Shown one piece after another: positions 7,111-63,823 of a DNA stretch of 64,000 bases. Below the pieces are notes generated by a model. That model was not told the origin of the DNA, ran no database searches, and saw nothing but the letters and a program-made list of their open reading frames with translations. Within the stretch, counting starts at the first letter, position 1. Each line of letters opens with the position of its first letter. A program made the position numbers and the translations under genes. The DNA comes from Bolinopsis microptera (Eukaryota; Ctenophora; Tentaculata; Lobata; Bolinopsidae), in contig NC_087074.1 in assembly GCF_026151205.1 (NCBI RefSeq), positions 18,264,712 to 18,328,711 on the forward strand. Direction: 5' to 3'.

Positions 7111-7118
7111 GTAACAAC

Positions 7119-21355: not shown

Positions 21356-24300
21356 TTATGAAGTGTCAATCCTAATAGTTCTTATCTTGTTCCGGTCTGC
21401 CAGGATGCAGGCCGCTTGGTTCGTTCCCCCACAATAGCCGGAAGAGGAGAACACTGTGAGAAGCTTTCCGTTTTGTTGGACCTGAGGGAAATATTGTTAA
21501 TTCATACATCACAGTGGGCCAGAATAGGGGGTCATGCTATACTAGACCATCAGTGATCAATTTAGATCATTTCAAACATTATTTTTTACTTCAAATCAGT
21601 TGAATATTGATTTTTAAACAAATTTTGGTCCTTTATAAGTCACAGAAAAATTTTTTTGGCTCATTCCATAGAAATTTTCATGGCTGAAATGTAGGTCTAG
21701 AGGCATCCAATTCGAGTTTTTGCTAAAGATAATCGTTGAATGTGTTTAGAATGTTTTTAAATTGATAGTCCTGAGGCTATTGATCATTTTAGTTTTTGAA
21801 TTATGAAAAAATATTGATCGTAGCCAAAGTTATGTCAAATTGAAACCAGAAAATTGGGCGCGAATGCCAGAAATTTCTGAAATTGTCAGAAAATACCAGT
21901 AAAATTCCAGAAAAATAGCATTTTTTGATGATATTTCCAAAACAGACCACTTTTTAGTACCCCATAACCTCATGGCACCAGGCCACGACATTGAGAGCCA
22001 AGAAAGATGTTCAAAATGGGGTTTGTTTGAGAAAAAATAATTTTTTTCAAATCTGCAAGGTAAGTCTAAATTCCATCAAATTTTTTTTTCTGAAAAAGCC
22101 CCAAAAAACCCCAGAACAGTTCTTATACCATTGTTTAGAGAATCGTCTGAGCTTTCAGATGGTACCATGCATTAGTGGGGCAACCTGAGGCATCTAAACT
22201 TTTTTTGGCCAAATTTAAGCAAAAATTAGTCAAAAATGAGGCATAAAATTGAGTGCGTGCCAAAAATTCAGCTTAAATGATATGATTACATGGTTTTTTG
22301 CTTGAATTGAAGCAAAGAGAGTACTTTCACCTTAATTAGGAGTCAATATACAGTGTTTTAAGCCAATTTTAGAAATAAAATGATGGGTTATGCCAATTTT
22401 GACTGCCAAAAGTGAAAAAATTGGCAGTCAAAAAATTTCGTAAAATCGCCGACGCGCTGCGCGAAAGCCATTTAATCAATTCAATTATGGTTTTTTGCAT
22501 CTAATAGCCAAGATTTTCTACTGCAATACAAAACTTACTTAATTACTTTTAAAAGAACTCAATTTTTCCTCTAGTATAGCATGGTGGCCCACTGTGTACA
22601 TAGCGGTCACTTCATCGGTCTCGCCGTGAAAAACAGGAAAGGTAACTATGGTAAATTATTATAATTATGGTGAATGGGGGCGAGTGGTTTAAACAATATC
22701 TGGTAGAACACTATAAGGATTTATGGCCTCCATTCTCCCTGGACCATACCTGGAAGCCTGCCTGTTTAACCTCGTGTGCTCTGATTACATGAGAGAGTTT
22801 ATTTCTCTTCAGAAATGCTTCTAAAGCCTCTCGAGAGAAAAGGTAGGCCGTTCCTCGCCGATGGTTTGCGATAAAACCTCCAGAGTCTTTTACTTCCTCT
22901 TTAGTTTGTGTATCAAGTTCATCCTCTCTGTAGGTTATATAATATTGTTTTATATTTGATTTTAATTATTCTAAATGAAATGAGATTAAAAATCCTTCCA
23001 GTCAGTTTTTCTCTGGAAGAATACAAATTCACATTTACCTCAGAGGATCTGACCACATCACCTCCCAAGCCAGCCTGGATTCCTTCTCAGGGTTAGGTAG
23101 ATCGTGAGGAATGTCCTCGAACACGGACAAATATCCACCACCATTCTCAGGGGAGGGTATACCTCCGTGTACGCAAAATATCTGAAAGGAGGAAAAGTAT
23201 AGATATTAAAGTTAGATCAGCTAGAGAAAAATTAAAATGTGCTGAAAGACAGAGCCCAGAAACCAACTGCTTTTAGTGTGTTTAGAGTTGGCTTTATTGT
23301 AAATAACTACACAGCCCTGCTAAAATATTCAACGTGCTGTTGTGGTAATTAATAACCTTATCGTCTATAACTGCCGCCAAGGGTAGAGCGTCAAAACACT
23401 TGTTGACAGCCTCCCACACTTTCTCTCCCATGACATCTCCAAACTTTGATAAGCACTCTGATTTGAAAGTAAACATCTGCTGAATATTCCTCACTTCGTG
23501 GTTGCCTGGATATAATGTGTAATAGTTACTTTTGATATCCTGATAACTGTGTCCACTGTAAACGGTAAAAAAGAAAATACTGCAAGTGCAAGTCTGTGCA
23601 ATGACGTCGTCCCACAATATATGCTTTTATTTGATTATCGATAAAAAATGTTTATCGTAATTTGCGATGAACCTTCTGCAACTGTGAACAATGAATAAGG
23701 GCCGATAAGATAAATGGATTTTAATACCCATATTGGAAATAATTAGCTGATTTTACCTCTGATAAGAAAGAATTTCTGAGGAGCGATCAGTTTCTGAGCA
23801 AAAAGGTAAGCGACCACTTCTAACCCATAATCTCCTCTGTCGACGTAGTCACCCAGGAATAAGAAGTTACTGGGGGTCAGCACTGGACCCATTCTCCATA
23901 ACACCTACAAAAGGAATCATCAAATTATTATAAGTACGAGGGCCAGGGATTCAGGGATTGTGACAACAGTTTTTCTAGAGGGTGAGAATGACACAACCAT
24001 ATTGAGGGACTCTTAAATTTTATATTTACACTTTAAAAACATATAAAAACCATGTATTAAGGGGGCCGGGGGGGGGGTCTTCATCAAAATTCTCTCGAAA
24101 TTGATTTTATAGTTGTTTCTGATAGAGGGGAGTGATATCTATCAGCTGCTTTTGGTCCCATGGAAACATATTGTTCCTAGCCGAAATTATCGCTGGTCTA
24201 TCTTGGACCTGGAAAAATCGTCAAAAAATGAGGTCCAAGATTTTCAAAATCGAATAAAAAAGTTTCTAAGGCCTATCTCAAAATTCGGCTCGATTGATCT

Positions 24301-24998
24301 CTTCTTAATGATCCCTAGAACATATCCTGAACGTTTCAGGGTTATTCCTCAAAAAATGTAGGAGAAGATAGATTTTTAGACTCGATTTTCAGGGCGCGCG
24401 ATTAAAAATCGCTCGCGCAATACAATTACACATTTAAAGCGCTGACCTTCGACCAGCGATAATTTCGGCTAGGAACAATATTTTTCCATGGGACCAAAAG
24501 CAGCTGATAGATATCACTCCCCTCTATCGGAAACAACTATAAAATCAATTTCGAGAGAATGTTGATGAAGACCCCCCCCCCCTGCCCCCCAACTCCACAG
24601 TGCTTACCTTTTCAAAGGCTACAAGGTCGTGGAAGTTGCCGTGAACATCCCCCAGGATGTATGTAGGACTGGTAAGGTTGAGCAGACGCGGCTCCGTCAC
24701 AAACACTTTTTGTACCTGTCAGGAAATTATATTGATTAAAACAAATTCATAAACTTCATCTGGAAGCATCTTGTGTCAATCGAGAAATAGTACAAAAATG
24801 TATCTCACACCGTAAACTCCAAAATTCTAACTCAACACGAACCTGTTCGGCGATACTAAGCATGCAAGTTCCCAGAAGGTTGGGGTCCACACACCCCCAG
24901 CTGAAGGCAGATTTGGGTATCCCCTGGTTATTTGGGTCACTCTTGATGTGTCTCTCAAAGTACCGCAGGCCCGACAACATCTCGTTAGGGTTGGAGTG
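21356..24998 (-). CDS. PPP-family Ser/Thr phosphatase exons of the fusion gene (exons 14-20)
   Basis: Every PPP signature is present in order: [13 protein letters not shown] (GDxHG, exon 15), [16 protein letters not shown] (GDxVDRG, exon 16), [17 protein letters not shown] (GNHE, split between exons 16 and 17), [23 protein letters not shown] (HGG, exon 18), [30 protein letters not shown] (exon 19) and [19 protein letters not shown] then IRTIRIDTS* (exon 20). Metal ligands and phosphate-binding residues are therefore intact, and the enzyme should be an active metal-dependent Ser/Thr phosphatase. Exon 14 ([13 protein letters not shown]) is a pre-catalytic region. A 1.1 kb transposon lies in the last intron, 28 bp upstream of the final exon, and a foldback element sits next to the exon 15 donor. 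Confidence 0.93.
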
Positions 24999-25420
24999 CT
25001 AGGGGAAGAATGTGTCAGAGTCCAAATAAATGTGCAGGGCGATAACTTTAAATAAGAATTAAGGGGGTTACATTATAATCCCTTGTTTTAGTTGTTTATG
25101 TTAGTTTCTGATTGGCGCGATCAGTCTAGCAGACAGCAGCACTGGTTTATATAAATGTATAGTCTGCGTGTTTGGACGCTTATTTCAGACAAATTCTCCT
25201 GATTGACGTTTAATAGTTGCCGCTACAAATGTTAAAATATCTAGATATTCTAGTGGCATACTTTGCCAGTGCTGTACTTATAACGCTTTATGTCCAGACG
25301 AGCATGCCTTGTACTTGATAACCTGGTACAGTGATGATCTGTTCACTGTTACCATGAACCGCTGGAGTAGCTTTACAGCAGCGGCAAAACAGAAAGAATC
25401 TGCAATCATCACGGTATTTG

Positions 25421-25451
<31 letters not shown>

Positions 25452-27478: not shown

Positions 27479-27516
<38 letters not shown>

Positions 27517-30500
27517 GTAAATTGTAAGAAGCACTCGAAATACAGCAGTGTGACCAACAAAACCAGATGGCAGAATCAACACTCTCCACCTCGCAATACA
27601 CACTTGGTTCAGACAATGGGACAATTCACAGTTTTTCTACCAACACCACAGATTTTGAACTAAGCGGTCAGCTGAACGACCAGGAGCGGCTTTACCTGCT
27701 TGTTTACCATTGTGCCATGTTCATTATAGGAACAATTAGCAACGCCCTACTCTTCATATGTACTCTCACATTCAAGCAACAGCAGAACACGCACAGCGAG
27801 ACAGTGTCCGCTCTGCTGGGCAGGGACAAAGAGAGCAACTTCAGGATCAACAGGGTGGTGATCTTGGAGAACTTATCCTTTAACGGTCTCATGATTTGCT
27901 TGGCGGTAATCGCGCCAGTGGTAACGACCCACACTGTCAAATACTGGGCTCTAGGTCATGTGATGTGTAAACTGATAGCGCAGAGCACGGAGATTTTGTA
28001 CACTTCGGGGCTATTGGTATACTTTACAATGTCTTTACACCGGCTGGGAGTTGTGGTTTGTCCTTACACCAAAGTCAAACCTACGGAGGTAAAGTTTTTC
28101 CAGAATCTTTTTATACTTGAGATATTTACATGAAGGTATTTCATTGATGATTTGCAAATATGGTATTTTCTTCTTCGGAAGGAGAATGCTATGCTTCTCG
28201 AAGTAGGAATAATGATTAATGAGAAATAGAACATTTGCCTAGAAGAGAATTAAGATAACTTGCCCTGTTCACTGTTGTTCAACCAATTTTATTTCAGATC
28301 CGTCTACTAACAATGTGGTTGTGGGTAGGAACCACCTTCATGGTGATATTCCTGAACATATTCGTCTTATCCCACGCAGAATTCGACCAGTTTCACGGTA
28401 CCTGTTCCATTCTTAACCAGGCCTCATTCCTACTACCTCGTTTCGTGATCTACTCTGTCCTATACGGCGGCTCACTTCTGACAATTTTCACCTGCGCTGT
28501 CTTACTCTCGGTGAAATCTTTCTGCGGGAGAAACCCAGAGCTGGATTCGTCACTGGCGCCGAGTTTGCTGTTTTACACCTTCGCGTGGACAGGGCTGCTC
28601 GTTAAAATGGTCTCTGTATCTTTCGAGTGGCCCTTGTCCCCGCTAGCTGATGTCGTGACTACGAGCGCCCCAGAGTTGCAGGTCGCGCTGAATCCTCTTC
28701 TGGTTTTCTGGCGACACACTCAGCTAAGAGAGACTCTTTCAGATCTTTTCAAATGTGTGGCATGCAGAGCAGTGGGTTCAGGAGACGACGAAATGGAAAT
28801 GGAGGATTGAAGACACTGGTTATTTGCGAAATTATGGGAGAGAATCAGAAAATAACAAAATTTAACAGATTTACTTTTTTACATTAAATAATTACACTTT
28901 TTAAAATCAAATATCTTATTTCATAACGAGGGATGTGCATTTAATCAATTATTTCATCAGATCTTATATTCAATGTAAAACCAGACGTCGGTGCTTTCCT
29001 TTTCTGAGTAACCTTCTAAAAATAATCCCATAGTTTCCCAGACAATATTATGCGGACATTGCGATAAGAAACTCATATAAAAACCTTTGTGTCGGTACTT
29101 CTGATAACTCAGTAGAACGGATATGGAGGTTAATTATACGGGGCTCACCTCATTAAATGTATCGACTGAGTGGCTTCTGTCGATAACGAGAGTGTTATAG
29201 AGATTACCGTCCTTCTGTTTAGCTTCCTCGTTAGCGCGGCACAGTTGTGCGGAGCTGAGAGTCATGGCCAGATTCTTGACTTGGTCACTTGAGGGTGTAA
29301 GGAGATTATTTAACAGAGTTTTTTAGTCCTGCTGATATAATATATAAGCTGTTTGAAGGTCTAATATTCTAACAAATGAAGCGTTACAGTTAGAGTATCA
29401 CAGTTACAGTTAGAGTATCACAGTTACAGTTAGAGTATCACAGTTACAGTTAGAGTATCACAGTTACAGTTAGAGCATCCCAGTTACAGTTAGAGTATCA
29501 CAGGTACAGTTAGAGTATCACAGTTACAGTTAGAGTATCACAGTTACCTGTCCCAGAGAACTGCTACGTCGCTGATTGTGCCCGTTCTTCTTACTTTAAC
29601 CGTGTGCATGGCCAACTCATATTGCGGATCTGGATGGTGTTTTTTATGTCATATCACTCATACTTTATGCTTTCTAACCAATAAGATATCAGCTTTAAAA
29701 TAAAGTTAATTCGAGCATAAGATTAAGAATCATTTCTTATTCATCATTACAAACCTCCTGGTTTGACGTTGTCATTGACGTCATTTGCTGAAAATGTCAT
29801 TCCTTCCACATTCATATCCTTCGCTTCCTCGTCATTTTTCTGCGTTACCTGCACGTTAACTGTCTTCAGACATCCAATACGTTAAATTTTAACTGTACAC
29901 AAGTAACTTTACGGTATGTACCTTCATTTTTACATAATATGATGCTAATAAATATTCAAAATATCACTCAACATCATGCCATATTGATTATTTGGTAGTC
30001 TAAGCGAAACTTACTGGGGCTTGTGGACTTCTGACTGCGTCATATTTAACGGCAGATTTCTGTAGTCGGAAGAGGGAGCTCGTTCCCCTGAACTTCAGCA
30101 TACCAACCGCTGTCAAGAATTCAGTGAGGTACAAGGAAGACTTATCCTCCGAGCTGAACACTCTGAAAGAACATGTTTGTTAGATTTGATAACAAAAGAA
30201 CTACAGCACAAAAACATGTATAGTATAGGCTACAATAAAATAATTCATATAGGTTAGGTAAAAGCGCACTCATCATGTACGTGACTGACCAACAACGTGC
30301 TATTGTTTTCCAACTACAAATTTAAATGAAAGTCGAAGAAATTGTTTTCGTCACTCTTTATCAATTTAATATGGTACGTTCCATCGAAATTTGCCCCTAT
30401 CATCTACCAGCAATTTCCTATGATCATTGAAAAGAACCCTCCTATCGCAACTTAAATCGGTCGTTAACTATTATTTATTTTTAATAAAATTAAATAATTG

Positions 30501-33500
30501 AATTAATTCTTGCTTAGCTTGCTTGCGCGTCTTGATTGCGCAGTATATTCTACGAAAAGATTATCGCGCGTTACGTATTGACATGTCGGAAGACCCTTTT
30601 TTACTTGGTCAGCAGGATTCCCTGTATAGAAATATAGGCCCAGAGTTTAATGAAATGCCGGTGCTTTGGTTAAGTACTCAATATTTTCAGACAATTTCAA
30701 CTGACTTGTGGTTAATCCGATCGAGTTACAACAATTTTAAGATCATGTGCGAATCAAGGGCTATTAAAATCAGTGGAACTAGTTTAGTAATTGCACGATA
30801 ACTTTCCTCGGTTAAAGATAATTTTCGAAACGTTTTAACGTGATATCACACAATAAATCAACTGCATGTTACACGATTACGCCTGATATTGAACTCGGCT
30901 TCGCCTCGTGTGATTAACAGGCTAATCGGCACTCAGTTGCAAGACCGCATATCCGGGCCTATTGGCGTACATAACACAGCATTAACGATCATTATAGTAC
31001 ACCGTCTGCATTCATTTGAATGGAATTTTAAATATTTCGAGCAAAATGATCTTATAGAACAGTGTACTGACTTGGCTAGTTGAACGGCTTCTTCGTGGAT
31101 CCCTTCAGTAGAAATGTCGGGATTCTTCAATCTCTGAATATCACCGACCATGTGGCTGAGAAAAGATATATTTATAGACTGATATTCATAATTAGTTTTC
31201 CCCTCTTCCCAAAAATATGTCATCTGTCAGTTGAATTATATGAGGAAGTTAATTACTTTTCACTTACCAGAATTCCGTGAAGTCAAGTTTACCATCCAAA
31301 TTTTTGTCGTAGTATCGGAATATGTATCGGCACCTGGTGCAGTGGGACGAAAGATTCAGTTCAAGTAGTGACAGAGTAATTTAAAAATATAGAAAGGTGG
31401 AATTCAACGTTGAATCATTCAATAACATAATGAGTCAATATACTGGATAACAACTAGCACTGACGGTCTGAATCATGCCTAAAACTTATATGCACTCTTC
31501 AAAGATCTATAACTTTTGAAAGTTTGGAAAGACTCAATTTCCCAGTTTCGACTACAATCTCGACCAGTCACTTTGCCGGGCCACGCCGATTGTTCTCATT
31601 CACAACCACACAATTTGCCCTTACTCTGCACGATAACGAGCAGTACATGAGATGCAGCCACCATTCCTTGCCTCATAAACACAAAACACAATGATATTTT
31701 GTTTATCCCTTCATTCATTTATTCGACCTTGAGCACAAAATAATACCAAGTGCGGTGAGCAAGTTCGTTACTGCTTGCATATTTTAACCGCGAAATGGAA
31801 CTACATCACATTTTCACAGTAAAATCATGCTACTTTGTGTCAATATGTTCCGTGAATATCCCCGGGATTACTCGAGCACGAGATCATAATAATATGCGTA
31901 ATTTCACCCTACATAACCATTTATTTCCTATCATTTGGTGTATCGCACCTAACTTTCACAATTATATCTTATTTGGACGTTCCTCCTAGTATTACAGCTA
32001 GTGTAACCTTTAACCTGCCTGTAATAATATTAAGTTTTATTTAACGACGGTGAGAGTATCAACTATCACTACATTTTAACACACGGCTCACAGTGCAGGG
32101 GACCCTTTACACAATAACAAGGGAGTATGTGTTCGAAGTTTGAATCTAGGTTGGGGGCCGGGGGAGGGGAGAGAGGGGACCTGGGGGCCTGGGGAGGGAG
32201 GGGACCTGGGAGGGAGGGGACATGGGGACCTGGGGGCCTGGGGAGGGGAGGGAGGGGAGGGAGGGGAGGGAGGGGAGGGAGGGGAGGGAGGGGAGGGAGG
32301 GGAGGGAGGGGAGGGAGGGGAGGGAGGGGAGGGAGGGGAGGGAGGGGAGGGAGGGGAGGGAGGGGAGGGAGGGGAGGGAGGGGAGGGAGGGGAGGGAGGG
32401 GAGGGAGGGAGGGGGCCAGGGGAGGGGGGAAGATTATTCGCGATATATTACCTCATTTCCGCAGAAGAGCTGCCGTGTGGTGTATTAGGATCCATTGCAG
32501 CGAGCCCCAATATAAACTCCTGGCTTGTTATCTCGTTATCCTTCTTTATGTCAAACGCTCTGAAAAATTGTGATATTTTCGTAGGAAAAGGCAAAGTGAA
32601 GTTTCCTTGGAATATATTTCTATATTTAGATTCCTAGCGAAATGTAACATAATATACCACTCAAAGAATTTACTAATCTGAGTTTGAAGACCGGGCTTTA
32701 GTACCCCAGAAGTTAAATAACAAACCTGAAGAAGTCAGGGGCTTGATCGGGAGGGAAACCGAACCCAGCCATGAGCTGGGTAAATATCTCCAGTGAAGCT
32801 GTGTTCTGCGCTCCACAAACTCGATCAAAGTACTCCATTATTAACGACTGTTCTGTGAAAAGTAGGTATAATTATCATAATATTATGAGTGTTTTATCGG
32901 AAATTTGTGCCTCAAATTTAACATTGAGTTAGCAAATATGCTTGTTAAAGTTTTTGTCTTTACGACTCAATTTCATTTGAGGTTACCGATATCATGAAGC
33001 GGATGTTTTAAACTGTTACGAATCAAATAATCCTGTTCAGGAAAAAATCCAATTTGGCATGCTATAGTACTGAGAGGACGTATTCATATTAGAGAAGGCG
33101 CAGTCCAGCAATTTTGTATTCGGTCCATTTATTTTTACTTTTAAAAATCTTTAGAATTTCTTTAGAACGTATAATAATTTCAATAAGCTTGTGACGTCAT
33201 AATATGACTAAAATGCATGATGATTTTCTTTAAAGTTGAATTAGGACAAACGAAAGCTAGGGGTAGGTCACTGTCGGCTAGTATAAAAGTAACAAGTTCA
33301 AACGTCCGGCCGAAACATGCCTACTTCTCGTTGACAGAATCATGATAGGTATTAGGTATAATTAGTATGATAACCCCAAAAATATGGAAGCAGGGTTTTA
33401 ATACCATAGAAGTTTTTATTTAAATAAAAGTGTAATTTTATACTTTGGCTTTTACTTTTCCTGCAATAATGCGACAAAATATTCGCGTTACGATAATTAT

Positions 33501-36500: not shown

Positions 36501-39500
36501 AGTTGAACGTGACGCCAAAAGAGCACTGGATACAGGAAGTGTTGTAGTGTTGGTTAACGAAGACATACCTGCTGGGGCACTGGCACTGTTAGGAAAAGGA
36601 CTAGGCTATATCCCAACCCCAACTCGGGATAACATCGACTTGAGACTTGACATGAAGCTCGTCACCAACAAAATACTGAACTATTCTAATAGAGTACTTT
36701 CCGGAGAGACAGGATTACCTAACATAAGTAACCTCCCCGCCAAACTCCGTAGAAAAAACTACTCTACAGCAAAACCAAGCAATGAACAAGCAGTCAATAC
36801 AGCAGTGGACACAATGAGACGAGAACTCGACATCAAATTGAAGACTGCCGGAAGCCCACCTAAGCCCACCAACTTATCCTCTTCTGAGATAAAAGGACTC
36901 AAATGGTTGGAACAGCGCATTAAAGATGGGACAATAGCCATCACTAAGGCAGACAAGGGTGGTGCAACCCTTATTATCGACCCTGACCTCATCAAGCAAC
37001 GGACACTGGAGAAACTGGAAAATCAGGAACTATATGAAAAGTTGGACTGTGACCCTACCCAACAGCTGTATGAGAAACTCTTCAAGCACTGGGTACAGGG
37101 AAAAGAAGAAGGACTGATATTAGCAAGGGATGCGAAAGAAGTGATGGGTGTTTCTGACAACACCAGAGCAGACCAAACTGGACCCACAAACCGCCCCAGT
37201 ACCCTCCCTCACTATCGCCCCGGCCAGCCGTATTTCTACCCTGCTTTTAAAATTCATAAGCTGAAGAAAGAAGAACTCATACCAGGGGCCAAACCACCAG
37301 CAAGACTCATTACCGCCCTCCACGAAGGAGCCAGCAGACGACCGGATGTCTTCCTAGCTGATAAATACCTACGTCAACTAGAAAGGGATTTTTGCGAAGA
37401 CCTTCTTATTGATAATAGAGACGCCTTAGTCTGGCTCGACAACATCAACAATACCCTGGACACAGAACTCAAAAGCAACATTAAAGCATTCACATTTGAT
37501 TACAAAGCTTTATATGATTCATTGAGTCCCCACCTCACACTCCAAGCTTTGAAGGTGGCCATGGAAGAAAAGAGACCAGAATGGTCCGCCAAATTTAAGG
37601 AGTGGTTGATAAGAAGTGTTGAACTCAGCTATGAGTCGTCTATAGGCAAATTTAACGGAGAGTGGTACAGACAAAAACGAGGAGTACCGACAGGAGGCAG
37701 TATCTGTGTACAACTTGCAAACATAGCAGTATACCATGTCATGCGTGAGCAAGTCTATTCAGACACGGAACTAATGGAACCTGTAAAATCGGTCAAGAGA
37801 TACATAGACGACGGCTGTGGAGTATTCCATGGTACGAAAAGACAGTTTTCAAAATTCATCGCGACTGTCAATACAAGGCTAGCAGAACTTGGCCTCCACA
37901 TTGATGAGAACATCATAGAAGATAACAATGTTTATGTGGCGTTCTTAGACATAAAATTTTGTTTCGACACCGCAGGTGATCTTCAGACAGACCTCCATGT
38001 TAAAGAGACTGATGCTCGCTCTTACCTGTACTTCGGTTCCCACCACCCGAACCATACATTCAGCAGCATAGTCTATAGTGCATGCCTGAGACTCCGGCGA
38101 ATCATCAATGATAACGACAGACTCCGAAAACAAATTGATGAATTAAAAACCTTTTTCTTCCAATCCAACTACCCTAAAACTATGGTAGATAACATCAGTG
38201 AAAAAGTCAAAGGCTTTGAAAGATGCCTCAAACCACTGGACAACTCAAACAGCAGTGTCCTGGTCCCAAAGTCTCCAGAACCAGCAGTCCGCGTTATTTC
38301 AACATTTGGCAGCGATCAAGAGTTAGTAGAATCGGTAAAAAGATTGGAACCAGAACTCAGTAGAACCAGGAGCTTCTCAGGATTATCTGGTTCCCATACA
38401 AGTGGAAACACCCCAGGCTCCCCAATATCATCTAGAGCCGGTACATCACGCCCTATCTTCAAATTCGTCAGACGTACTGGAACATCATTTAGAAGGAAGT
38501 TAGTCAAAGCAAAACAGTTTGCGGATGACTTAACCCAACCTCACACAAGACCATGTGGGGGCAGACACTGCGGTACCTGTAACATCATATCTCCACATCC
38601 ATCAATAACAGTCAATGGACAGCGAGCCAAAGCAGTGTCTGGTACATGTGTCAGCTACAATGTTGTATACATCTTCAGTTGCCAACTTTGTAATATGTGT
38701 TATGTAGGAAGAACGGTGCAGCCCCTAAGGGCACGAGTAAACGAACATCGCGCCCATTACTACAAACTCATTTCGGACAATACGTTTGTCCCTGAAGAAA
38801 ACGACGACGGATTCAGCTTGGGTAAACACCTTGTAGAAGTTCATAACATGAAACAACGTGACAATTTCAACCAGGCTTATAAAGTGTCAATTCTCAGTAA
38901 TAGTAGTCCAAGAACTCTAGAAGTAGATGAACACCGTTATATTCAGAAACTAAGAACTATACGTCCATTGGGGCTCAATGCCGTGGACCCGTTTGGGATT
39001 CCATTATTGGATTTATCTTAAAGGTTTTCCATTGCATTGGGGCACAAAAGTTATGTTTTAAAAAATATTCATAGGTATCGTTTTTAGTTGTGTCATTTCA
39101 TTTCCAATGTTACACTTTGTAGGAACTGATATTAACCGAGTTTCTGATTCAGGATGTTACTGAAGATAGTAATGAAAATGTTTTAACACCTCAGTACTGT
39201 GTTTTACTACAGCTCAACCTGCTCAGTCTGACTATTTGGGAATTTAAACGCTAAATTAAAGATATTTGAAATTAAATCATCGATTTTATCAGTTTAATCC
39301 TGCTTCGAGAGATTGACAAATTAGTAAATTACATTTGTCTGGAAAGTTATAAATAAATTCTAACATTTATTACAGGCTTTGACATTAAATATACCCAACG
39401 AAGTTGTACATTCAAGTCATTCAAGCGAGACTTATAATGGAAATATCAAGATTTTGCACTTCTATATCAGATCAGAATTTATGGACAGTTAATAGTATGG

Positions 39501-42500
39501 ACAATTTTGTATCGGTTCAAATATTAGGAATATAATTAAAAGTTATGGTGGAAATAAAATGTTTTTAGGGTATTTTAAAAACATTTTACAGTTGATAATT
39601 CTCTCACTGAGTAAAGCAGTTTATTCCAAATTTTTGGTCCACGAAACATAAATGCAGCATCCGTTCGTCTGAAATGTGGTGCAGGAGGAACTTTCAGCAA
39701 ATAAAAGTCATCATCTAGTCTGGATAGTTAAAAGTGCGTTTAAACATATTATGTATTAATTAGGCGCATTCAGTATTAATTACGTCACTAAAACGCCCAA
39801 TATGAACAGCGACACGAACCTTGGGAGATATATTCGGCAAATTGTAGGGGTTCAGGTTTTCTGAGGGCACACATTTTGATCTCTGATAGTTTCATCCATT
39901 TTTTCTTCACAACTACTTCTGATACGGGATATTCTGTTGTGTCTGCTGGTTGCTGGGAGAAATTCACTTTTATTAACTAACCCAAAATAAACAGTCAAAA
40001 TAATTAAACAAGGTAATAATTTAAGATCCCGATATATAATAACGGAAGTATAGACCTAGATTCTGGTAGGGGCCGGAGGTGAGGCATATTTTTGTACACA
40101 TGAAAGAAATTAACCAATCACGTTCCATTATTGACCATTCAAACCCCAGAATCACTGTCACGTGTCAAACACAATATACCTCACCAGTCGCCTTCCCACC
40201 ACAATTTACATATAATAATGTTGCGTGTTTCACTTATTATCATTTATATCATTTAAGCTCAAATTATAATCGTAGCTTAAATGTTAAATAGCATATTAAT
40301 ATGATACCATAAAGTTTACATTTAGTTGAAGCTTTACCGAAAATTTAAAAGCAATAACAGAAAAGACGATGTCTAAATTTTCAATAAAAATTCTAAAGTC
40401 ATGTATCGTAACTTTGAGTTGAAAACATGGAGATGGATAAGGGGAACACTTACTGCGTAGAAGATTGTTCTGAAACGAGCCTGATCATTGGCGACTAAAG
40501 TGTGTTCCAGCCTCAATACTCCCTTTAGATTCACGTTGATACCACCGTCCTGCAATTTATTCAAATTACTCATGTCCTAGGGTAATCAGCCCTATTTGGA
40601 ATAGATAACCGTCGTCCTGCCATGGACTCTTGTCTCTTACCATAGCCCCAACGCTATGGTACTACTCAACAGGGGTTGGAGCCTCGAGGTTCTGGCTCTG
40701 GGGCGGTGCATTGTTAAAGACCCGTTTATGCGAGATTTTTTGTAACACAAAGAAATTAGTCAAAGTAGGTACCCGGACCATTGACAAAATAATGCTTTAT
40801 GCATGAGCATTGCAAGCGGCGGGGGTTCCTGCTTTATTTTGGCAAGCAAACGTTGCTTACTCCCCTTATGTCATTAGAAAAACGATGCACATTATCCTCG
40901 ATTATAATTATATTGACGCCACGAACTTGTGATAGCTGGGCCTTTGGTTTTATTTCTATAACGATCTTTACATTTGTGCTACGCAAGGTGTAGTGAATTC
41001 TTGAAATATACGTTTTGATTTTATTCCGACTTGTTTCTAGCTTTGCTCATAGCAAAGCAACCAGTGCAGTGACCTCATATCACGAGTGGCTGCTGCTGGA
41101 AAAGCAGAAAATTCGTTGACATTTGAGATAGGGCATGATCACAGTTAGTCGGACTGTAAACACTATCGTATTGTGTAAGTTCAAAATCCGGCAAACCGGA
41201 AAATAGATAGATATCCGACTGTTTCCGGTCCGGCAGCCAAAACCCCAAACGGCAAACCAGTCGGTTTCTATTCTCAATTAGTATCATAAAACTATGCGCT
41301 TTTAGCTTACCAATATTACAATACAACTGAATGTTCAAGTTCTATAAATTTTGTGCGATCGCGATGTAAAGTCAGTAAGACAATGTGTTACGCCTTCTGG
41401 TCCTTTTACGATATGTTTTCTAATCAAAAATGTTAACAAGAAACGTTTGTATTGTTGTTATATCTGTTTACACTCTTCACTAAGCCTCTACAATTGCAGA
41501 ACTAGAAAATGACAGTTTGTAAAGTGTCGTGGATGGTAATCTTCTTGTTTGCTTCTCTCACAGGTAATCCTCTATATATATCTTCTTATCTCTATTTTAC
41601 GATTAAATATTATTACATAATTACCCTGTCTCCGTTTAACGAGTCCCAACTCTCTTTCCTCAAGTAAAGTACCCATTAATAGTTATCGCAAACATGAAAT
41701 AGCACTGATTACTGAGTGCAGTGGACTAAAAGTTATGACTTTCCACAAATCAGGGAATGTTCTAGATGGCAGAATCTCACTCACTCCCAAATCTCGTAGG
41801 TATATATTATATAACTTTATTCAAATCAAAAATAGAACATAAAGAACATCTTGATGACCTGATAAGTCACCAAGAGAAAAATAACACAGAATAAACTAAG
41901 TCATGCTTAACTCTCTCCATGCTTTTCTATATGTTGCTAAAAGTCTTAAATGGTATAAATCGTCTGTATTTACAAGTCTAAAGTTTTTGTCACTTAAATC
42001 GTTCAAAATAGTTTTTAACAAGTTTGACTGGTGTCGTCCGACTCTACCTCTCATCAAACTCTGACTCTCTACAGCAAAATGTAAGGCAAGCTGGGCAGGT
42101 GAGTTATTATCACTGCGGAGGATGTGACCGAGCATTCTCCACCGTGCACGAGCAACACGCTCACTTAGTGGAACAACTTCGCAGCGTTTGTATAGAGTCA
42201 CATTTCGTATGACATTAGGGTAGGTCATGCCGATGATCGTACGGAGATGATTCCTGTGGCAGACATCAAGTTTTTGAAGGAGTTGTTTAGATGTTGCCCA
42301 ACTGTTGCAATTATACATCAGTATTGAAACAACTTGTGCTTCATATATCTTGAGTCGAATCTTCAAGGGTATACGTCTACCTTGTTCCCAGACTTTTTTG
42401 TAGTTCTGAAAAGCAATGTTAGCAAGTATACATCGTCTCTTGACATCTTCGATGCTACACAACTTAGAGCCTAAAGAGATAGATGACCTCCAAGGTTCTC

Positions 42501-45500
42501 TACCTCTGAGTGTCTCTCCTTTGTTATCGACCTCGTTCTTGCCGGCCAGATAGAAGTGGGTGAACTCGGTTTTTGACTCATTGACAAAAAGATTCCACTC
42601 TTCCAATATCTCTTTACATATTGGCAACAAAGACTCCAAATTGCTTTTATCCTCATCAGTAAAATCAACATCATCTGCGTACTCCCACTCGAGGGGTAAC
42701 AGATTCTCAGCTATGGGAGGGTTAGGTCTTAGATAGGACATAACAGCACGCAGGTGGTAAAGTGCTGCTGCCAGATATAGAGTGAACAAGTTTCCAGACA
42801 AACTGTCGCCTTGAAAAGCTCCAATCGTGACAATAAACTCTCCCGATATTGTTGAGTTCACTTTGATCTTCAGTTTAGTATTTGCGAGCAAATACCTTAC
42901 CAGTCGAATGTCATCCTCACTACAACCAGCATCAGCTAAAATGTCAAGTAATACCGACCTCTTTATGGTATCAAAAGCAGAGGACATGTCAATGCCCATC
43001 TTATGAAGAGACCAGCGTTTTTCCTTGACAACTGAAACTAGTATTCGCTGGGTCCAAACGATATTTGCACAACTATGGCCAGGTTTATAGGCATTCTGCC
43101 AAGGACCAGTGTACTGAGATACTTGCCTTTGGATGCGCTTTAAGACTATCATGGACAATATCTTTCTAGTACCGTTTAGTAGGCAAAGTGGGCGCAAACT
43201 CTTAGGGGGGCCTAGTGGCTTTCCAGGTTTTTGGAGCGGAGTAAGGTATCCCTCTGTGAAAGAAGGTACATGTTCATGGAGCTCAAAGGATCGATTAGTA
43301 AGTTGTGCAAATGTGGAAAAAAATATTTCAGGAGAGTGTTTGAGGAACTCGTTTGGGATCCCATCTGGTCCAACAGCTTTACCGTTCTTGAGTTTCTTGG
43401 CCGCAAGCTCAACTTCAAACGCTGTAATGGGGTTTTGAAGGGGCCTAGGGTTATCTGTGAACGGTTCTAGTGGTGGTTCACTGTCAGGTCCAGTGTAGTG
43501 TTCTTCGAAGTACTGGCGAATGATTTCAGCCTTGTCTCGTTCATTATCTACCAGTTGGTTGTCAGTGTTGAAAACAGACACAGAGCCCGCACCCGTTTTC
43601 TGTTTGCCTGATAGTTGACGAGCAGCTTCAAACATTCTCCGTCCTTCGTCTATGGTGGCTATAGAGTCAGCTAGGCTGTTTGCTAACTCAACTCTCAATT
43701 TTTTCAACCGTTTAGTAATGTCGTTTGAGAGCCTGTTGATATTAGCTCTGAGAGCTGTCCTGTCTCTGTATTCGTTGTTGTTCAGTTGTTGTAAAAGTTG
43801 TTTCCTTTCTTCAGACATGCTAACAACTTGACTGTCAGAGGAATGATTCATCTTTCGCTGTGGCTCGCGAAAACCCACAGTGGAAACAGCAGCTTCTTTA
43901 ACTACACCAAAAAGCATATCAAATTGCTGTTCCGTGTTGTTGGAGGTAAAGTCAGGATCTGATACAGTTTGCTCAAGTTTCTGATGAAGTTCTTGCTGAT
44001 ATTGTTGTTGAACTTGTTTGCTTCCAATCAAGGTTGTTGTGTTATAACTCTTCTGAAATGCTCTGCTCTCCCCGTACAACTTGAAGCGCTGCGAAAAATC
44101 TGCCTTGGCAACAACAAGTTTGTGGTCACTGCGGTGCGTTGTACCTGCATATGACCTGGCATCAGTTAGCAGTGCCTTGCTTCTGGACTTGCAGAGTATG
44201 AAGTCAATCTGTTGAAATAAGGTTTACTTTTCCTGGTTGCTCGATCCCGAATCCAACCAGTCCGTGTGGTAATGTGTCTGCTGTTATGGGAGAATGAAGT
44301 GTTGGCAGCAAACAGGCCATTAGCAGTGAGAAAGTGTAGCAACCGTTCACCGTTTTCATTCCTCCTCCCAACACCATGTCTACCAATATTCACATGTAAA
44401 CCATTTTCTACATCAACAGGGCTTCTTTTGCCAAGTTTGGCATTAAAGTTGCCTAACATCCATACTTCAAATCTAGCAGGAACACTGATAGCCTCGAGTA
44501 GCTCATCATAAAATTGGGTTGCTAATCGGGGATTCTGAACTAATTTGGGATTCGTAGGGCTGTAACAATTAACAATTCTGATATGACAAGGTGGTTGATC
44601 CACCCTTTTAGCTCTTAAATTAAAGTCCATATAAACAACTCTGTCACTGATCTGATGATGAGATACTATACATTCCAAAAAACGCTTGTTAACAATAAAC
44701 CCAAGTCCACCGTGTCTATCGTGTCTCTGATCAAACAAAAACAATCGATGATGTCCGGGGAGTGTTGTTTCCAAGTATTCACGTGTCTTGGTCTCCTGAA
44801 GTGCTAAAATGTCTAAGTTATATCTGTCAATGTCCTCTGCAACAAAGTGTTGCCTGTATGTGGTCGATAGACCGCAAACATTCCATGTCCCAAAATTGAG
44901 TGTCGTAGCCATGATGAAAAGAGTTGCGTAGACTAGGAATCCTGTGATCTTCCTCGAGGCGTTAAACGTACTGACTTTTGCAGTCATGCGGACCCGTTAC
45001 AGTCACACACCATCCTAACGTAGGTATAAGATGGCAGAATCCAAGTCCTTATTATATAATTACCCTGCCTCTGTTTAACGAGTCCCAACTCTCTTTCCTC
45101 AAGTAAAGTACCCATTAATAGTTATCGCAAACATGAAATAGCACAGTGGACTAAAAGTTATGACTTTCCACACATCAGGGAATGTTCTAGATGGCAGAAT
45201 CTCACTCACTCCCAAATCTCGTAGGTATAACAAGAGGTGTCGAAGAAGGCACACAGCCGATCAAAACATGGTGTGAATACCCAGGGATATACCTCCAAGG
45301 AGATATTTCACCACCCAACAGATATGGATCACTACTCCAGGCTAAAGTGGAGTGCCTTAAAAGATATCCTAGTAGGGTTTATTTCATCTGTTGAATTCGT
45401 ACACAAACCGAATATAAATATTTGCGTTTCTACTATATTATAATTCATGTAAATAATATTAATACTGATTACCAGTGACAGATTATACCGCTCTCGAATT

Positions 45501-48500: not shown

Positions 48501-49989
48501 TTCAGAGCTTCAGATATTATTATGTAATATGTCACGGCACTACTACTAAAGCACCACTGTGTAGGCTTCCTGGCGCCGTGCCAATCACTTGTCTCACTTA
48601 TTATCAGACATATCAGTTAGTATGGATTATTCTTGTATAACTGCAGAATCGCAAATATCTGAAATCCAAAAATAAAAACAGACCTTTGCCGCGACAAAAT
48701 CATGCGGCTATTAGTACTAAGTAATATTACATAAGACAATAAATAAGCCAATTACCTCGCGGCACTTTCTGATAGCAGCATCCTGCAGAGTCTCACCCTC
48801 ATGTACCCGTCCTGCTGGTAACCACCAACCAGTAGCGTCAGCGCTGGTGTAGAGGTCAAATCATGGAAATGTCAAAATAAACACAAGTAGAATTGTATTT
48901 TATTGTAATATCTTGTGAATTATATCTGTGATAAGTAGGAGTTGTTTATAATATGTTTTCAGATACTTCCGCCAATAGGTGCCGTTATAAGGTCGAAACT
49001 CTGTAATTCATACACTTTTCCGGGCCCTGCTGACCGAACTATGATTGAAGTGAAACTGAAGTAGTTGACATAACAATTAGTTTGTTTGTCAGTACTTGAG
49101 GTGTTGATATTATCAGACTTTGCCAAAGCAGCTCCCCTACTAAAAGTGTTTAAACTAAAGAAAACCTACTAATATTTTAAAATAATAATTCCACATTGTT
49201 GGCTTAAAGAGTCTTAAAACTGTAAATTTAGTAGGGTCACGTACTTTGCTACTGGTAATTTGCCAGACTGTTTTGACACGTGACAACACTGATTGGTCAA
49301 CACTGCAAGCTGATTGGTTAATTGATATGTCAGAAAAAAAATAAGGTTCACTTTCCCACCAGTATACAGATCTATATACTACACACTGATAACACACAGA
49401 GTGGATCGTGACATGAGGGAATACGTAACCATACCAGGACACACTGTAAGTTGTGTTAATTAAGTCACACATAACATATTTTATATTATATTTGAAACTT
49501 GATATAGTGGTCTCAGCAACCAACTAACACCTAGCCTAGTAGGTAAAGTGTGGTAGGTACTTGTCGTTCTGAGTGTGCGTGAAATGTGTAGTTACAGGGT
49601 CTCAGATAAAGTATAGCTTGTGACTAATTAATTGCCTAATTGACGCAATTAACACCCGATTATAAACTGCACGCAGGATGGAATACCATTCTGCACATTG
49701 TAACTAAAACTAAATTGCTGTTATTAGCAGGAATATAATAAATACTATGTCCCTCATAACTTGAGTACAATTTTACAGGAGTTTAGCACAAAGCACTTAG
49801 TTTATGATAATACACATCACACGCTGCTAACCGCTGGACTAGGAGGAAGGTATCGTCTCTTTGTTGCACTAGAATCAGAACAATGTTGACAGTCTGAAAA
49901 GTACATTGAACTGTTGATTGCTTGCCTCCTTCCGAGCCTGCTGGTGTGTTCTTCGTCCGATTGGCATTTTCCGGCATTGCTAAAAGCAT
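21356..49989 (-). CDS. Nudix / EF-hand / PPP-type Ser/Thr phosphatase fusion protein, 20 exons
   Basis: Exons in transcript order: 49989-49823, 48843-48756, 40549-40454, 39952-39820, 33879-33709, 32852-32726, 32559-32452, 31333-31268, 31155-31072, 30162-30015, 29848-29755, 29629-29548, 29287-29149, 24998-24843, 24715-24608, 23904-23757, 23505-23357, 23181-23039, 22927-22750, 21481-21356. All introns are GT-AG and the phase is preserved at all 19 joins, giving about 836 residues with no internal stop. Order: Nudix (about 35-165), linker, EF-hands (about 265-325), linker, PPP phosphatase (about 550-835). An in-frame TAA just before the first ATG supports the start. Two nested opposite-strand genes and a Penelope element lie in its introns. 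I know animal PPP enzymes with C-terminal EF-hands (PPEF/RdgC) but not this arrangement. The join between Nudix and EF-hand parts rests on phase and orientation only. Confidence 0.8.
21510..22596. mobile_element. Non-autonomous DNA transposon with CACAGTG ends and 5-bp target duplication
   Basis: The 1,087-bp element begins CACAGTGGGCC and ends with the exact reverse complement GGCCCACTGTG. It is flanked on both sides by TACAT (21,505-21,509 and 22,597-22,601). The TIRs continue with a shared CATGCTATACTAGA, but the left end carries 12 bp between the two blocks and the right end only 2. No transposase frame is seen. CACWRTG termini plus a 5-bp duplication are features of the Transib/RAG-type superfamily, although the duplication here is not GC-rich as is usual for that group, and other superfamilies also start CACAGTGG. 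It lies in the last intron of the phosphatase gene. Confidence 0.7.
24061..24597. mobile_element. Foldback element with about 130-bp inverted arms
   Basis: The left arm (about 24,065-24,197: GGGGGTCTTCATCAAAATTC, then a block around GATAGAGGGGAGTGATATCT and TCCTAGCCGAAATTATCGCT) returns as a reverse complement at about 24,453-24,596. The arms are separated by about 250 bp. It is in the phosphatase intron and its right arm ends 11 bp from the exon 15 splice donor. Transcripts could form a long hairpin there. Confidence 0.75.
26094..26140. repeat. Perfect 20-bp-stem hairpin
   Basis: CATAGATTGTCGCATAATAT (26,094-26,113) is followed by a 7-base loop and its exact reverse complement (26,121-26,140). 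No TIR-like longer structure or known small RNA family is apparent. It may be a tiny palindromic element or a hairpin-forming transcript. Confidence 0.75.
27484..27512. repeat. GA microsatellite
   Basis: About 14 uninterrupted GA units in the putative promoter or 5'UTR of the GPCR gene, which starts at 27,567. GA tracts can bind GAGA-type factors, but there is no further support here. Confidence 0.85.
27567..28810 (+). CDS. Seven-transmembrane receptor, rhodopsin-class-like, two exons
   Basis: Exons 27567-28088 and 28298-28810 (GT-AG, phase 0) give 344 residues. The N-terminus has N-glycosylation sites (NGT, NTT). Helices are visible: TM1 [19 protein letters not shown]2 [20 protein letters not shown]3 [20 protein letters not shown]4 [19 protein letters not shown]5 [22 protein letters not shown]6 [20 protein letters not shown]7 [11 protein letters not shown]. 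The TM3 cysteine and a Cys in loop 2 (FHGTCSILN) could form the conserved disulfide. The DRY motif is replaced by LHRL, the TM2 Asp by Asn, and NPxxY reads NPLLVF. These departures place it among divergent class A receptors. Ligand unknown. The gene sits wholly inside an intron of the minus-strand phosphatase gene. Confidence 0.8.
28811..29148. other. GPCR 3' flank inside the phosphatase intron
   Basis: About 340 bp between the receptor stop codon and the next exon of the opposite-strand phosphatase gene. It must contain the receptor 3'UTR. No distinct element is recognised. Confidence 0.5.
29149..33879 (-). CDS. EF-hand and linker exons of the fusion gene (exons 5-13)
   Basis: Exon 5 starts with the end of the Nudix domain ([14 protein letters not shown]) and runs on into a Cys-containing linker. 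Exons 6-8 form a calcium-binding module: [10 protein letters not shown] and [19 protein letters not shown], then EF loop [12 protein letters not shown] (canonical 12-residue spacing) and [15 protein letters not shown], then a second, perfect loop [12 protein letters not shown]. Exons 9-13 form a linker ([41 protein letters not shown]) without a family I recognise. The EF-hands lie N-terminal to the phosphatase, opposite to PPEF. An exon of 82 bp (29629-29548) borders a 20-bp tandem array whose unit contains the splice donor sequence. Confidence 0.8.
29381..29547. repeat. 20-bp tandem array abutting and containing a splice donor
   Basis: Eight copies of the 20-bp unit CAGTTACAGTTAGAGTATCA (29,381-29,540), with minor variants, plus a partial CAGTTAC at 29,541-29,547. 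Read on the minus strand, the partial unit is GTAACTG, the first bases of the intron after the 29,629-29,548 exon of the phosphatase gene. Nearly every full unit repeats GTAACTG, so the array is a chain of donor-like sequences downstream of the real donor. Confidence 0.85.
32144..32430. repeat. GGGAGGGA microsatellite (G-quadruplex-prone)
   Basis: About 280 bp of GGGAGGGGA/GGGAGGGA units, most regular from 32,240 to 32,410, within the intron just downstream of the 32,559-32,452 exon of the minus-strand phosphatase gene. Open frames of Gly-Arg or Gly-Glu repeats across it are artefacts of the repeat. Runs of four or more G-triplets make quadruplex formation on the plus strand likely. Confidence 0.9.
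33880..35742. other. Phosphatase-gene intron, no exon recognised
   Basis: Intron between Nudix exon 4 and exon 5, on the exon 5 side. It contains a 24-base G run (34,843-34,866). A minus-strand frame near 35,555-35,660 can be spliced in phase onto exon 4 but shows no Nudix similarity, whereas exon 5 does. No nested gene is recognised here. Confidence 0.5.
35743..39259 (+). mobile_element. Complete Penelope-like retroelement with direct terminal repeats
   Basis: Two 178-bp direct repeats (35,753-35,930 and 39,072-39,249), starting TAGGTATCGTTTTTAGTTGT and ending GGGAATTTAAAC, appear identical by eye. They flank one long intact open frame. The whole is bracketed by a 10-bp target duplication GCTAAATTAA (35,743-35,752 and 39,250-39,259). 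Direct terminal repeats of this kind are typical of Penelope-like elements. Identical repeats and an intact frame point to a very recent insertion, in an intron of the minus-strand Nudix/phosphatase gene and opposite to it. Confidence 0.93.
35931..39071 (+). CDS. Penelope-like reverse transcriptase with GIY-YIG endonuclease (1,022 aa, coding 35,953-39,021)
   Basis: ATG at 35,953, stop ends 39,021; the flanking bases to the terminal repeats are UTR. RT motifs are clear: [17 protein letters not shown] (about residue 335), motif [13 protein letters not shown] (about 515), motif [18 protein letters not shown] (about 576) and motif [12 protein letters not shown] (about 616). The C-terminal part has a Cys/His cluster CGGRHCGTC (about 868) and a GIY-YIG nuclease [18 protein letters not shown] (about 905-925) with RARVNEH. 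The N-terminal 300 residues are basic and coiled-coil-like. In this family the RT copies the RNA at a nick made by the GIY-YIG domain. No frameshift or stop is present, so the protein may be functional. Confidence 0.95.
39260..39600. other. Phosphatase-gene intron between Penelope and a LINE fragment
   Basis: AT-rich intron sequence with no recognised exon or element. Confidence 0.5.
39601..39721 (-). pseudogene. C-terminal LINE reverse transcriptase remnant
   Basis: The minus strand reads [20 protein letters not shown] followed by [17 protein letters not shown]. This resembles the last residues of CR1/jockey-type LINE polymerases (compare KRSFFFRTHSVWNDLP in the LINE at 54.8 kb). Only about 40 codons remain, about 100 bp from exon 4 of the phosphatase gene. 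A short fossil fragment. Confidence 0.5.
39820..49989 (-). CDS. Nudix-domain exons of the fusion gene (exons 1-4)
   Basis: Exon 1 gives the first strand of the fold ([20 protein letters not shown]). Exon 2 gives [20 protein letters not shown] followed by RKCRE, and exon 3 continues [18 protein letters not shown] then ARFRTIFYA. The split Nudix box joins to exactly the 23-residue GX5EX7REUXEEXGU frame but reads RKCREDGGI: the first Glu of REUXEE is Lys and the last is Asp. Exon 4 holds [20 protein letters not shown] and AEYISQ, continuing to [10 protein letters not shown] in exon 5, a typical C-terminal Nudix layout. Substrate unknown. Loss of a metal-ligand Glu suggests weak or no hydrolysis, with binding possibly retained. 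The 8.2 kb intron between exons 2 and 3 houses a kringle gene on the plus strand. Confidence 0.82.
40550..41508. other. Intron of the Nudix/phosphatase gene, upstream of the kringle gene
   Basis: About 960 bp between Nudix exon 3 on the minus strand and the first kringle exon on the plus strand. It probably includes the kringle gene promoter. The open frames here have no recognisable motif. Confidence 0.5.
41509..46798 (+). CDS. Secreted protein with PAN/apple-like Cys domain and a kringle
   Basis: Exons by eye: 41509-41563, 45225-45371, 45561-45686, 45965-46085, 46329-46379, 46645-46724 or to a stop at 46796. Phases match at every join (1, 1, 1, 2, 2). Exon 1 is a signal peptide, [18 protein letters not shown]. 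Exons 2-3 give a Cys-rich domain ([52 protein letters not shown]) resembling PAN/apple-like folds. Exons 4-6 give one complete kringle: [64 protein letters not shown] then ETLC. Function unknown; kringles bind proteins or ligands outside the cell. The 3' end is uncertain: if the donor after 46724 is not used, the product ends 24 codons later. A LINE lies in intron 1, and the whole gene lies in an intron of the minus-strand Nudix gene. Confidence 0.82.
41611..41804. repeat. Left copy of the long target-site duplication around a LINE
   Basis: 194 bp that match 45,050-45,229 with about four substitutions and one 14-bp indel (GATTACTGAGTGCA region near 41,706-41,720). It ends CAAATCTCGTAGGTATA, which includes the intron 1 acceptor of the kringle gene and its first exon 2 bases. 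Confidence 0.85.
41805..45049 (-). mobile_element. APE-type LINE inserted at kringle exon 2
   Basis: About 3.2 kb on the minus strand between two long direct repeats. Its 3' end is AT-rich (TTTGAATAAAGTTATATAAT), and its coding region holds an endonuclease and a reverse transcriptase. The 5' junction (45,018-45,049) carries scrambled pieces of the target (CGTAGGTATA, AGATGGCAGAATC), as expected if the cDNA end jumped templates during integration. No ORF1 is seen. Confidence 0.85.
41896..44987 (-). pseudogene. LINE endonuclease-reverse transcriptase, one frameshift
   Basis: The N-terminal part (44,987 to about 44,215; a good start is [15 protein letters not shown]) is an AP-endonuclease-like domain with [27 protein letters not shown] and [10 protein letters not shown]. 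The frame then shifts near 44,215 (in RKSKPYFN) and resumes in another frame as [20 protein letters not shown] and [12 protein letters not shown]. The RT has [45 protein letters not shown] and the active-site EYADDVDF (around 42,680), and ends WRELSMT. The C-terminal tail is shared with the fragment at 2.2-3.0 kb. Otherwise open over about 1,000 codons, so only one indel has inactivated it. Confidence 0.88.
45050..45229. repeat. Right copy of the long target-site duplication
   Basis: 180 bp matching 41,611-41,804. It runs directly into kringle exon 2, supplying its polypyrimidine region and acceptor (CAAATCTCGTAG before 45,225). See the left copy for the differences. Confidence 0.85.
46802..46885 (+). 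repeat. tRNA-like sequence, probable SINE head
   Basis: TGGCCGAGTGGCTCAGTTGA resembles a Pol III A box and GGTTCGATTCCCA a B box, about 50 bp apart, with CTTGTTAATCGCGAGG in the anticodon-arm position (GTT-like). The acceptor and T stems do not pair well, so a functional tRNA is unlikely. A tRNA-derived SINE or tRNA pseudogene is the better call. Confidence 0.5.
46886..48755. other. Intron of the Nudix/phosphatase gene with a shared repeat
   Basis: Non-coding sequence between the kringle gene and Nudix exon 2. It includes a repeat (47,355-47,850) also present at 52,727-53,205. No other exon is recognised. Confidence 0.5.
47355..47850 (+). repeat. Interspersed repeat, copy A
   Basis: About 490 bp that align closely, in the same orientation, with 52,727-53,205 (for example TTGGGCATACGCACCAAATT and CTAACTGTGGATTCTGTGTT in both). 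The other copy is part of a TIR element, so this one is probably a truncated relative of that element's internal part. It is non-coding. Confidence 0.85.
48844..49822. other. Intron 1 of the Nudix/phosphatase gene
   Basis: Intron between exons 1 and 2, about 980 bp. The 122-codon minus frame at 49,155-49,523 shows no domain. Three CCAAT-type ATTGG motifs occur near 49,290-49,320. Confidence 0.5.
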
Positions 49990-63535: not shown

Positions 63536-63823
63536 GTTTAATTTTGAGCAAATATCATCCTGATAGAGTGATAGTACTTGTTAGTTGTTGTTAAGATTTA
63601 TTATGTTATCAATCACAATCGTCAATCAGGCTATTCTTTTGAATATCCAGTATTCAGTATTACAAGCAAATAATAACGGCACATATTACAGATAACTGTT
63701 TACATTTTCAAGTATAGTTATACTACGTAGACGTGTCTCGTGATCTGCCACTAGACACAGCAGTGGTGTTGCAGACACGCCAGCTCAAGTAATAAAGTGT
63801 TACCATGGGCCGGCACAACACAG
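63536..63823. other. Sequence between the microsatellite and the E-box cluster
   Basis: AT-rich, no recognised gene or repeat. Confidence 0.5.

Follow-up and report, generated by a model that had tools for sequence, protein, structure and literature searches.

The LOC134812734 locus of Bolinopsis microptera

The window, i.e. the whole 64,000-nucleotide stretch of Bolinopsis microptera DNA that was analysed, contains the gene LOC134812734, which runs along the minus strand from position 49989 to position 21356 and could be rebuilt from 20 exons, each junction having a GT donor, an AG acceptor and compatible phases, into a reading frame free of internal stop codons. A protein database search returned the public product of this gene, P0001 (833 aa), which is 100% identical to the rebuilt product. 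The public annotation, where the gene is already listed as uncharacterised, agrees with the 20-exon model of the first-pass annotation, and the exon rebuild together with the identical P0001 confirms that all exons lie in one orientation and splice in phase without a stop. Three donors are usable at the end of exon 1 (49832, 49823 and 49814), all in frame, and give proteins of 833, 836 or 839 aa, respectively. The originally proposed length of about 836 residues corresponds to the middle donor, 49823, whereas the public model, judging from its 833 aa and complete identity, uses the donor at 49832. An open stretch between exons 19 and 20 (22655..22542) was dropped as an extra exon because exon 19 joins position 21481 in frame, as it does in P0001. 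The exons are listed below; all come from the splice rebuild, with any further evidence given in brackets.

49832..49989, minus: exon 1, start codon and Nudix; donor of the public 833-aa model; the frame is kept at 49823 and 49814 as well
48756..48843, minus: exon 2, first part of the Nudix box
40454..40549, minus: exon 3, Nudix
39820..39952, minus: exon 4, Nudix
33709..33879, minus: exon 5, end of Nudix and link to the EF module
32726..32852, minus: exon 6, EF module
32452..32559, minus: exon 7, non-canonical EF-A loop (alignment)
31268..31333, minus: exon 8, canonical 12-residue EF-B loop (alignment)
31072..31155, minus: exon 9, EF module
30015..30162, minus: exon 10, degenerate EF-C loop and KFRGTS stretch (alignment)
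29755..29848, minus: exon 11, variable linker (identity table)
29548..29629, minus: exon 12, conserved linker element, a 14-residue stretch followed further on by LWD (identity table)
29149..29287, minus: exon 13, linker to PPP
24843..24998, minus: exon 14, N-terminal part of the PPP region
24608..24715, minus: exon 15, PPP, GDVHG (alignment)
23757..23904, minus: exon 16, PPP, GDYVDRG (alignment)
23357..23505, minus: exon 17, PPP, GNHE (alignment)
23039..23181, minus: exon 18, PPP, VHGG (alignment)
22750..22927, minus: exon 19, PPP, RRG and RAHE (alignment)
21356..21481, minus: exon 20, an 11-residue stretch and the stop codon (alignment)

On the 836-aa model, Pfam matched NUDIX at residues 37–144 (E = 7e-13), EF-hands (1.1e-10) and Metallophos at residues 571–790 (2.1e-31). 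The Nudix, EF-hand and phosphatase domains of the first-pass annotation were thus all recovered, although the Nudix box is not intact (see below). When the genome assembly (264,652,675 bases in 232 contigs) was searched with the Nudix part, all four matches were the gene's own exons.

Other features found in the window, several of them within introns of LOC134812734, were the following.

7056..8399, plus: polyadenylation factor CLP1, a single uninterrupted frame with all three CLP1 Pfam domains
27528..28810, plus: GPCR-like gene in two reading frames inside intron 13, on the opposite strand; the first frame matches 7tm_1 below threshold (1.8e-5; 24.8 bits, cut-off 30.5) and the second has no Pfam match
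32240..32420: long CCCTCC simple repeat array in intron 7
35929..39021, plus: 1030-aa open frame in intron 4 that matches reverse transcriptase (5.6e-7) and, below threshold, GIY-YIG (0.0083); we take it to be a Penelope-like element
41896..44996, minus: LINE-like element in intron 2, two overlapping frames with reverse transcriptase (8.9e-21) and endonuclease (1.9e-8)
58490..60112, minus: 540-aa frame with an AlkB-like 2OG-Fe(II) oxygenase (3.1e-13) and a GDSL/SGNH-type hydrolase (5.4e-6, below the cut-off), upstream of endonuclease and reverse transcriptase frames (57552..54762) and perhaps the first frame of a retroelement
63062..63580: long purine-rich array, open in several frames

One chain across animal phyla

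The search with P0001 gave 82 proteins in total. Of the 81 other matches, 44 align over at least 92% of the query, which places the Nudix, EF and PPP parts co-linearly in one chain; ten of these 44 are encoded on contigs of 2.6–4.8 kb (source label 'lgn') that look like assembled transcripts, as some 800 codons in 2.6–4.8 kb leave little room for introns. The first-pass annotation had pointed to the junction between exon 5 and exon 6 (33709/32852) as the place where transcripts might end or begin. In a two-gene model, a small Nudix protein (exons 1–5) and an EF-hand phosphatase with its own start codon in exon 6 would be joined only by prediction. Exon 6 does hold an in-frame ATG (MEYFDRV...), exon 5, if left unspliced, meets a stop shortly past its donor, and a contig carrying a second copy of the locus, C97, has no detected exon 5 upstream of exon 6. 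However, some 240 bases upstream of exon 6 this contig passes into a dispersed repeat, in which it ends, so that exon 5 could not be seen on it and its absence is no evidence against the junction. The two-gene model, which we rejected on the strength of the co-linear relatives, seems hardly credible, and the sequences of those relatives support the joining of exons 5 and 6 in one gene. A single polypeptide with Nudix, EF and PPP in that order, as originally proposed, is thus borne out by the identical P0001 and by full-length relatives from many animal phyla.

Contig C97, 27,877 bases long, has exons 6 to 19 as well as a part of exon 20 that matches poorly (76%). Its exons 6 to 14 are the same as in the window except for one silent base in exon 8, and ten introns are 91.5–98.2% identical over their best-aligned stretches; exon 15 lacks one base, exon 19 contains a stretch of differing bases, and gaps are numerous in the left third of the contig. 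We take this contig to be the other haplotype with sequence errors; it may, alternatively, be a decaying duplicate of the locus. The repeat in its intron 5 (positions 23300–27877) is a dispersed inverted repeat of several kb with many genome copies at 93–98% identity.

In all, 145 proteins were gathered, including fragments, isoforms and sequences from near-identical species, so that the counts cannot be read as independent events. Of the 1982 matches of the third protein search, 120 were listed, a scope that allows no statement on non-animal relatives. Among the matches listed, family members come from at least a dozen animal phyla (phylum assignments are ours), and the combination is not peculiar to this genome. 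The non-bilaterian relatives among these matches are from the ctenophore Bolinopsis, the sponges Sycon and Amphimedon, and the cnidarians Acropora and Nematostella; the deuterostomes are echinoderms, hemichordates, Branchiostoma and the tunicates Ciona and Styela. The same matches include molluscs, annelids, nemerteans, Lingula, the bryozoan Watersipora, Macrostomum and rotifers, as well as Priapulus, tardigrades and arthropods, the last with a single insect that we noticed by name, Anabrus. Among the matches listed we saw no name of a vertebrate or a nematode, which would explain the neglect of this family. Its members appear in the databases under names such as 'uncharacterized protein', 'PP1 isozyme 1-like' or 'pef-1-like'; two from echinoderms are entered as BSL1 homolog and BSU1. 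Judged by titles and abstract openings, none of the papers listed in our literature searches describes the Nudix, EF-hand and PPP combination; sponge ilborin, which combines an EF-hand with an aldolase TIM barrel in the account of PMC8864356, was set aside as unrelated. What the analysis adds is the presence of this family in many animal phyla, the absence of the Nudix triad from all members aligned, and the conserved linker element.

Conservation of the three domains and the linker

The C-terminal PPP domain is complete, as had been claimed. P0001 contains the GDxHG, GDxVDRG and GNHE motifs and the later His and Arg ligands of PPP Ser/Thr phosphatases. In the EF/PPP alignment (138 proteins of at least 560 aa), none of the eleven ligand or motif residues checked is missing from more than one of the covering sequences. 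Mean pairwise identity in this domain reaches 64.3% among the 120 proteins of at least 700 aa that make up the identity table. In a tree of 25 sequences and 277 columns, the 19 family members adjoin one BSU1 (ultrafast bootstrap 82%) and stand away from calcineurin A, PP1/PP6 and PP5; with a single BSU1 and no PPEF or PP7 in the tree, this grouping is a pointer to a BSU1 kinship of the PPP domain rather than a proof. One metagenomic relative, P0110 (1168 aa; excluded from the EF/PPP and N-terminal alignments), has two tandem PPP domains, the first with altered motif residues (GNYVDGG), and shows neither a Nudix nor an EF match that passes the Pfam cut-offs.

The presence of EF-hands and a PPP domain in one chain brings to mind a rearranged PPEF/RdgC or calcineurin A. 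The top PDB sequence match of the protein is indeed a calcineurin A entry, but its score is summed over two stretches, and the best single stretch gives 158 bits versus 175 for BSU1. A Foldseek search with the whole predicted model of P0001 (mean pLDDT 76.9, pTM 0.54) returned calcineurin-containing fusion chains in its first six rows, followed by PP1, and the rmsd of 23–31 Å for the fusion chains indicates shared domains, not a shared arrangement. Against such an origin, the EF module precedes the PPP domain, the chain ends with that domain (...IRTIRIDTS), and no IQ motif was found, either among Pfam matches of the 836-aa model up to E 10 or by a simple pattern search. PPEF membership was therefore rejected, in line with the original distinction between this protein and PPEF, and calcineurin A membership was rejected on the position in the tree (which includes no PPEF) and the missing C-terminal extension. 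We consider descent from either enzyme extremely improbable.

The 'two EF-hands' seen at first are real as Pfam matches, but belong to a larger module: in the predicted structure of the scallop protein, the EF region is part of a fold that matches the four-EF-hand sensors SOS3, calaxin and AtCBL2. Only one loop of P0001 has the full EF consensus (EF-B, at residue 303). The 12-residue EF-B loop is canonical in P0001 and in 100 of 137 aligned sequences, whereas EF-A is canonical in 1/136 and EF-C in 0/134. Calcium control of the phosphatase is plausible from the conservation of EF-B, but would not be universal, as this loop is non-canonical in the other 37 of the 137 sequences and has been lost, for example, in corals. 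Mean pairwise identity of the EF part (42.5%) falls between those of the PPP and Nudix parts.

Of the three domains, Nudix has the lowest mean pairwise identity (22.4%), and its fast divergence argues against one conserved ligand. The N-terminal alignment comprised 126 proteins in which the anchor motif is preceded by 225 residues or more; its least conserved Nudix rows are aligned uncertainly, which makes counts at single positions approximate. None of the 126, the ctenophore protein included, has the catalytic triad formed by the glutamates of REUXEE: the first and third glutamates occur in none and the second in 44, and the first position is occupied by Leu in 70 and by Ile in 27. At the seven key positions, the ctenophore box reads G-E-R-K-E-D-G, so that RE has become RK and EE has become ED, and the box is not intact. 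The fold itself is kept where tested. P0001 has the best Pfam NUDIX score in the family (2.2e-13), 24 of the 25 matches in a PDB profile search with the bilaterian Nudix part were of the Nudix type, and the N-terminal fold of the scallop model matches Nudix hydrolases; for sponges, cnidarians and tunicates the assignment is by alignment. Pfam NUDIX is a poor detector here, with 6 of 45 members and 6 of 15 N-terminal pieces recognized. In a ten-protein test it detected nemertean P0018 and annelid P0052 and missed two sponges, a sea anemone, a tunicate, a hemichordate, a sea urchin and nemertean P0012 (2/10 detected).

Could the domain, in ctenophores at least, still catalyse hydrolysis through an atypical active site? 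The ctenophore box, tied with three others, is the nearest to canonical (five of seven key positions), and the top Pfam score belongs to the same protein. Its first glutamate, however, is replaced by Lys and its third by Asp, and forms of NUDT9 with RILGEE or REFGKK were inactive in the experiments described in PMC6461439. Hydrolase activity thus appears very unlikely. Non-catalytic Nudix domains are typically found in multidomain proteins, where they bind small molecules or other domains, according to the overview in PMC5389931. The suggestion that the protein 'couples nucleotide binding' to dephosphorylation is not supported as written, given the absence of the triad in 126 of 126 sequences and the low conservation of this domain.

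Between the EF module and the PPP domain, mean pairwise identity over the 120 sequences goes from 22.4% at residues 386–425 to 59.5% at 426–450 and 34.7% at 451–488. Residues 426–450 thus form a short element whose conservation comes close to that of the catalytic domain, whereas the sequence on either side is variable. Its motif is K-V-[RK]-R-[ST]-G, most often KVRRTG (55 sequences) or KVRRSG (34); 118 of the 120 sequences have Ser or Thr at residue 440, and all 120 have Gly441. The predicted model places strands here with low confidence (block means of 63, 55 and 38 over residues 421–450). The basic run ahead of the Ser/Thr looks like a kinase site, and the element may serve as an internal pseudosubstrate or docking strand; its conservation suggests a switch.

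Proposed regulation and comparison with known systems

We favour, at roughly even odds (about 0.5), the view that this protein is a calcineurin-like single-chain phosphatase with a calcium sensor in cis, a pseudo-Nudix module and a switch in the linker element. Its output would come from the PPP Ser/Thr phosphatase domain, in which the metal and phosphate ligand residues are intact; this domain is preceded within the chain by an EF module of the calcineurin-B/CBL kind, with one working-looking calcium loop in most relatives. The N-terminal Nudix fold, having lost the residues for hydrolysis, is probably a binding or protein-contact module. The basic-Ser/Thr-Gly element is the best candidate for the moving part, as an internal docking or autoinhibitory strand that is possibly phosphorylated, and calcium at the EF module, perhaps together with a ligand or partner at the Nudix fold, would alter its hold on the catalytic domain.

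A competing view, which we hold to be a serious possibility at somewhat below even odds, takes the Nudix and linker parts as passive, the Nudix fold being a structural or targeting remnant and the phosphatase being constitutive or controlled by partners instead of calcium or a metabolite. The universal loss of the triad, a Nudix identity of only 22%, the near-absence of canonical EF-A and EF-C loops and the loss of EF-B in more than a quarter of the sequences would all fit such a protein. The persistence of the three-part order in distant phyla, the canonical EF-B loop in most members and the strong conservation of the linker element speak against it. A more ambitious extension of the regulated-phosphatase reading is speculative, and we think it doubtful: an ancient enzyme, which the common ancestor of today's animals already had and vertebrates have apparently lost, whose inactive Nudix domain would sense a nucleotide metabolite and whose EF module would sense calcium, both gating the phosphatase through the phosphorylatable K-V-R-R-[ST]-G strand as a coincidence detector of calcium and energy or redox state. 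Were the favoured reading true, animals would have a calcineurin-like phosphatase with a built-in sensor, and, in addition to TRPM2, there would be another case of a Nudix enzyme fold repurposed next to calcium signalling; the conserved linker element offers a specific, testable target.

Several known systems share parts of this arrangement. The likeness to calcineurin, going by structural resemblance, lies in the pairing of a PPP domain with a CBL/calcineurin-B-type calcium sensor; the difference is that the sensor here is in cis and N-terminal, whereas calcineurin consists of a catalytic A subunit and a separate EF-hand B subunit. The C-terminus of calcineurin A carries the B-subunit-binding helix and the calmodulin-binding and autoinhibitory segments, none of which P0001 can have, as nothing follows its PPP domain. 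PPEF/RdgC phosphatases, which carry an IQ motif, likewise combine EF-hands with a PPP domain in one chain, but their EF-hands follow the PPP domain instead of preceding it. Plant BSU1/BSL phosphatases have Kelch repeats, whereas none were found among Pfam matches up to E 10 in the 836-aa model.

Comparable in composition, going by their description, are the EF-hand Bsu1-type phosphatases without Kelch repeats that a 2021 study reported from choanoflagellates and other protists, naming Thecamonas, Monosiga, Salpingoeca, Basidiobolus and Nannochloropsis as holders (PMC8249667). They too have EF-hands and PPP in one protein, and the BSU1 grouping of our PPP domains agrees with such a kinship; here, in contrast, the EF module is preceded by a Nudix fold, and the main text of that study does not contain the word 'nudix'. 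For the Nudix part, the TRPM2 NUDT9-H domain and DBC1/CCAR2, as presented in PMC6461439 and PMC5389931, offer the parallel of a Nudix fold without the catalytic Glu in a multidomain protein. Human TRPM2, whose NUDT9-H reads RILRQE and is catalytically inactive (PMC6461439), is also a precedent for an inactive Nudix fold beside calcium signalling, and it shares the Ile at the first Glu with 27 of the 126 family members. The effector in our family is a phosphatase, unlike in TRPM2 or DBC1, and while TRPM2 lost catalysis in vertebrates, here the triad is lost in every aligned member.
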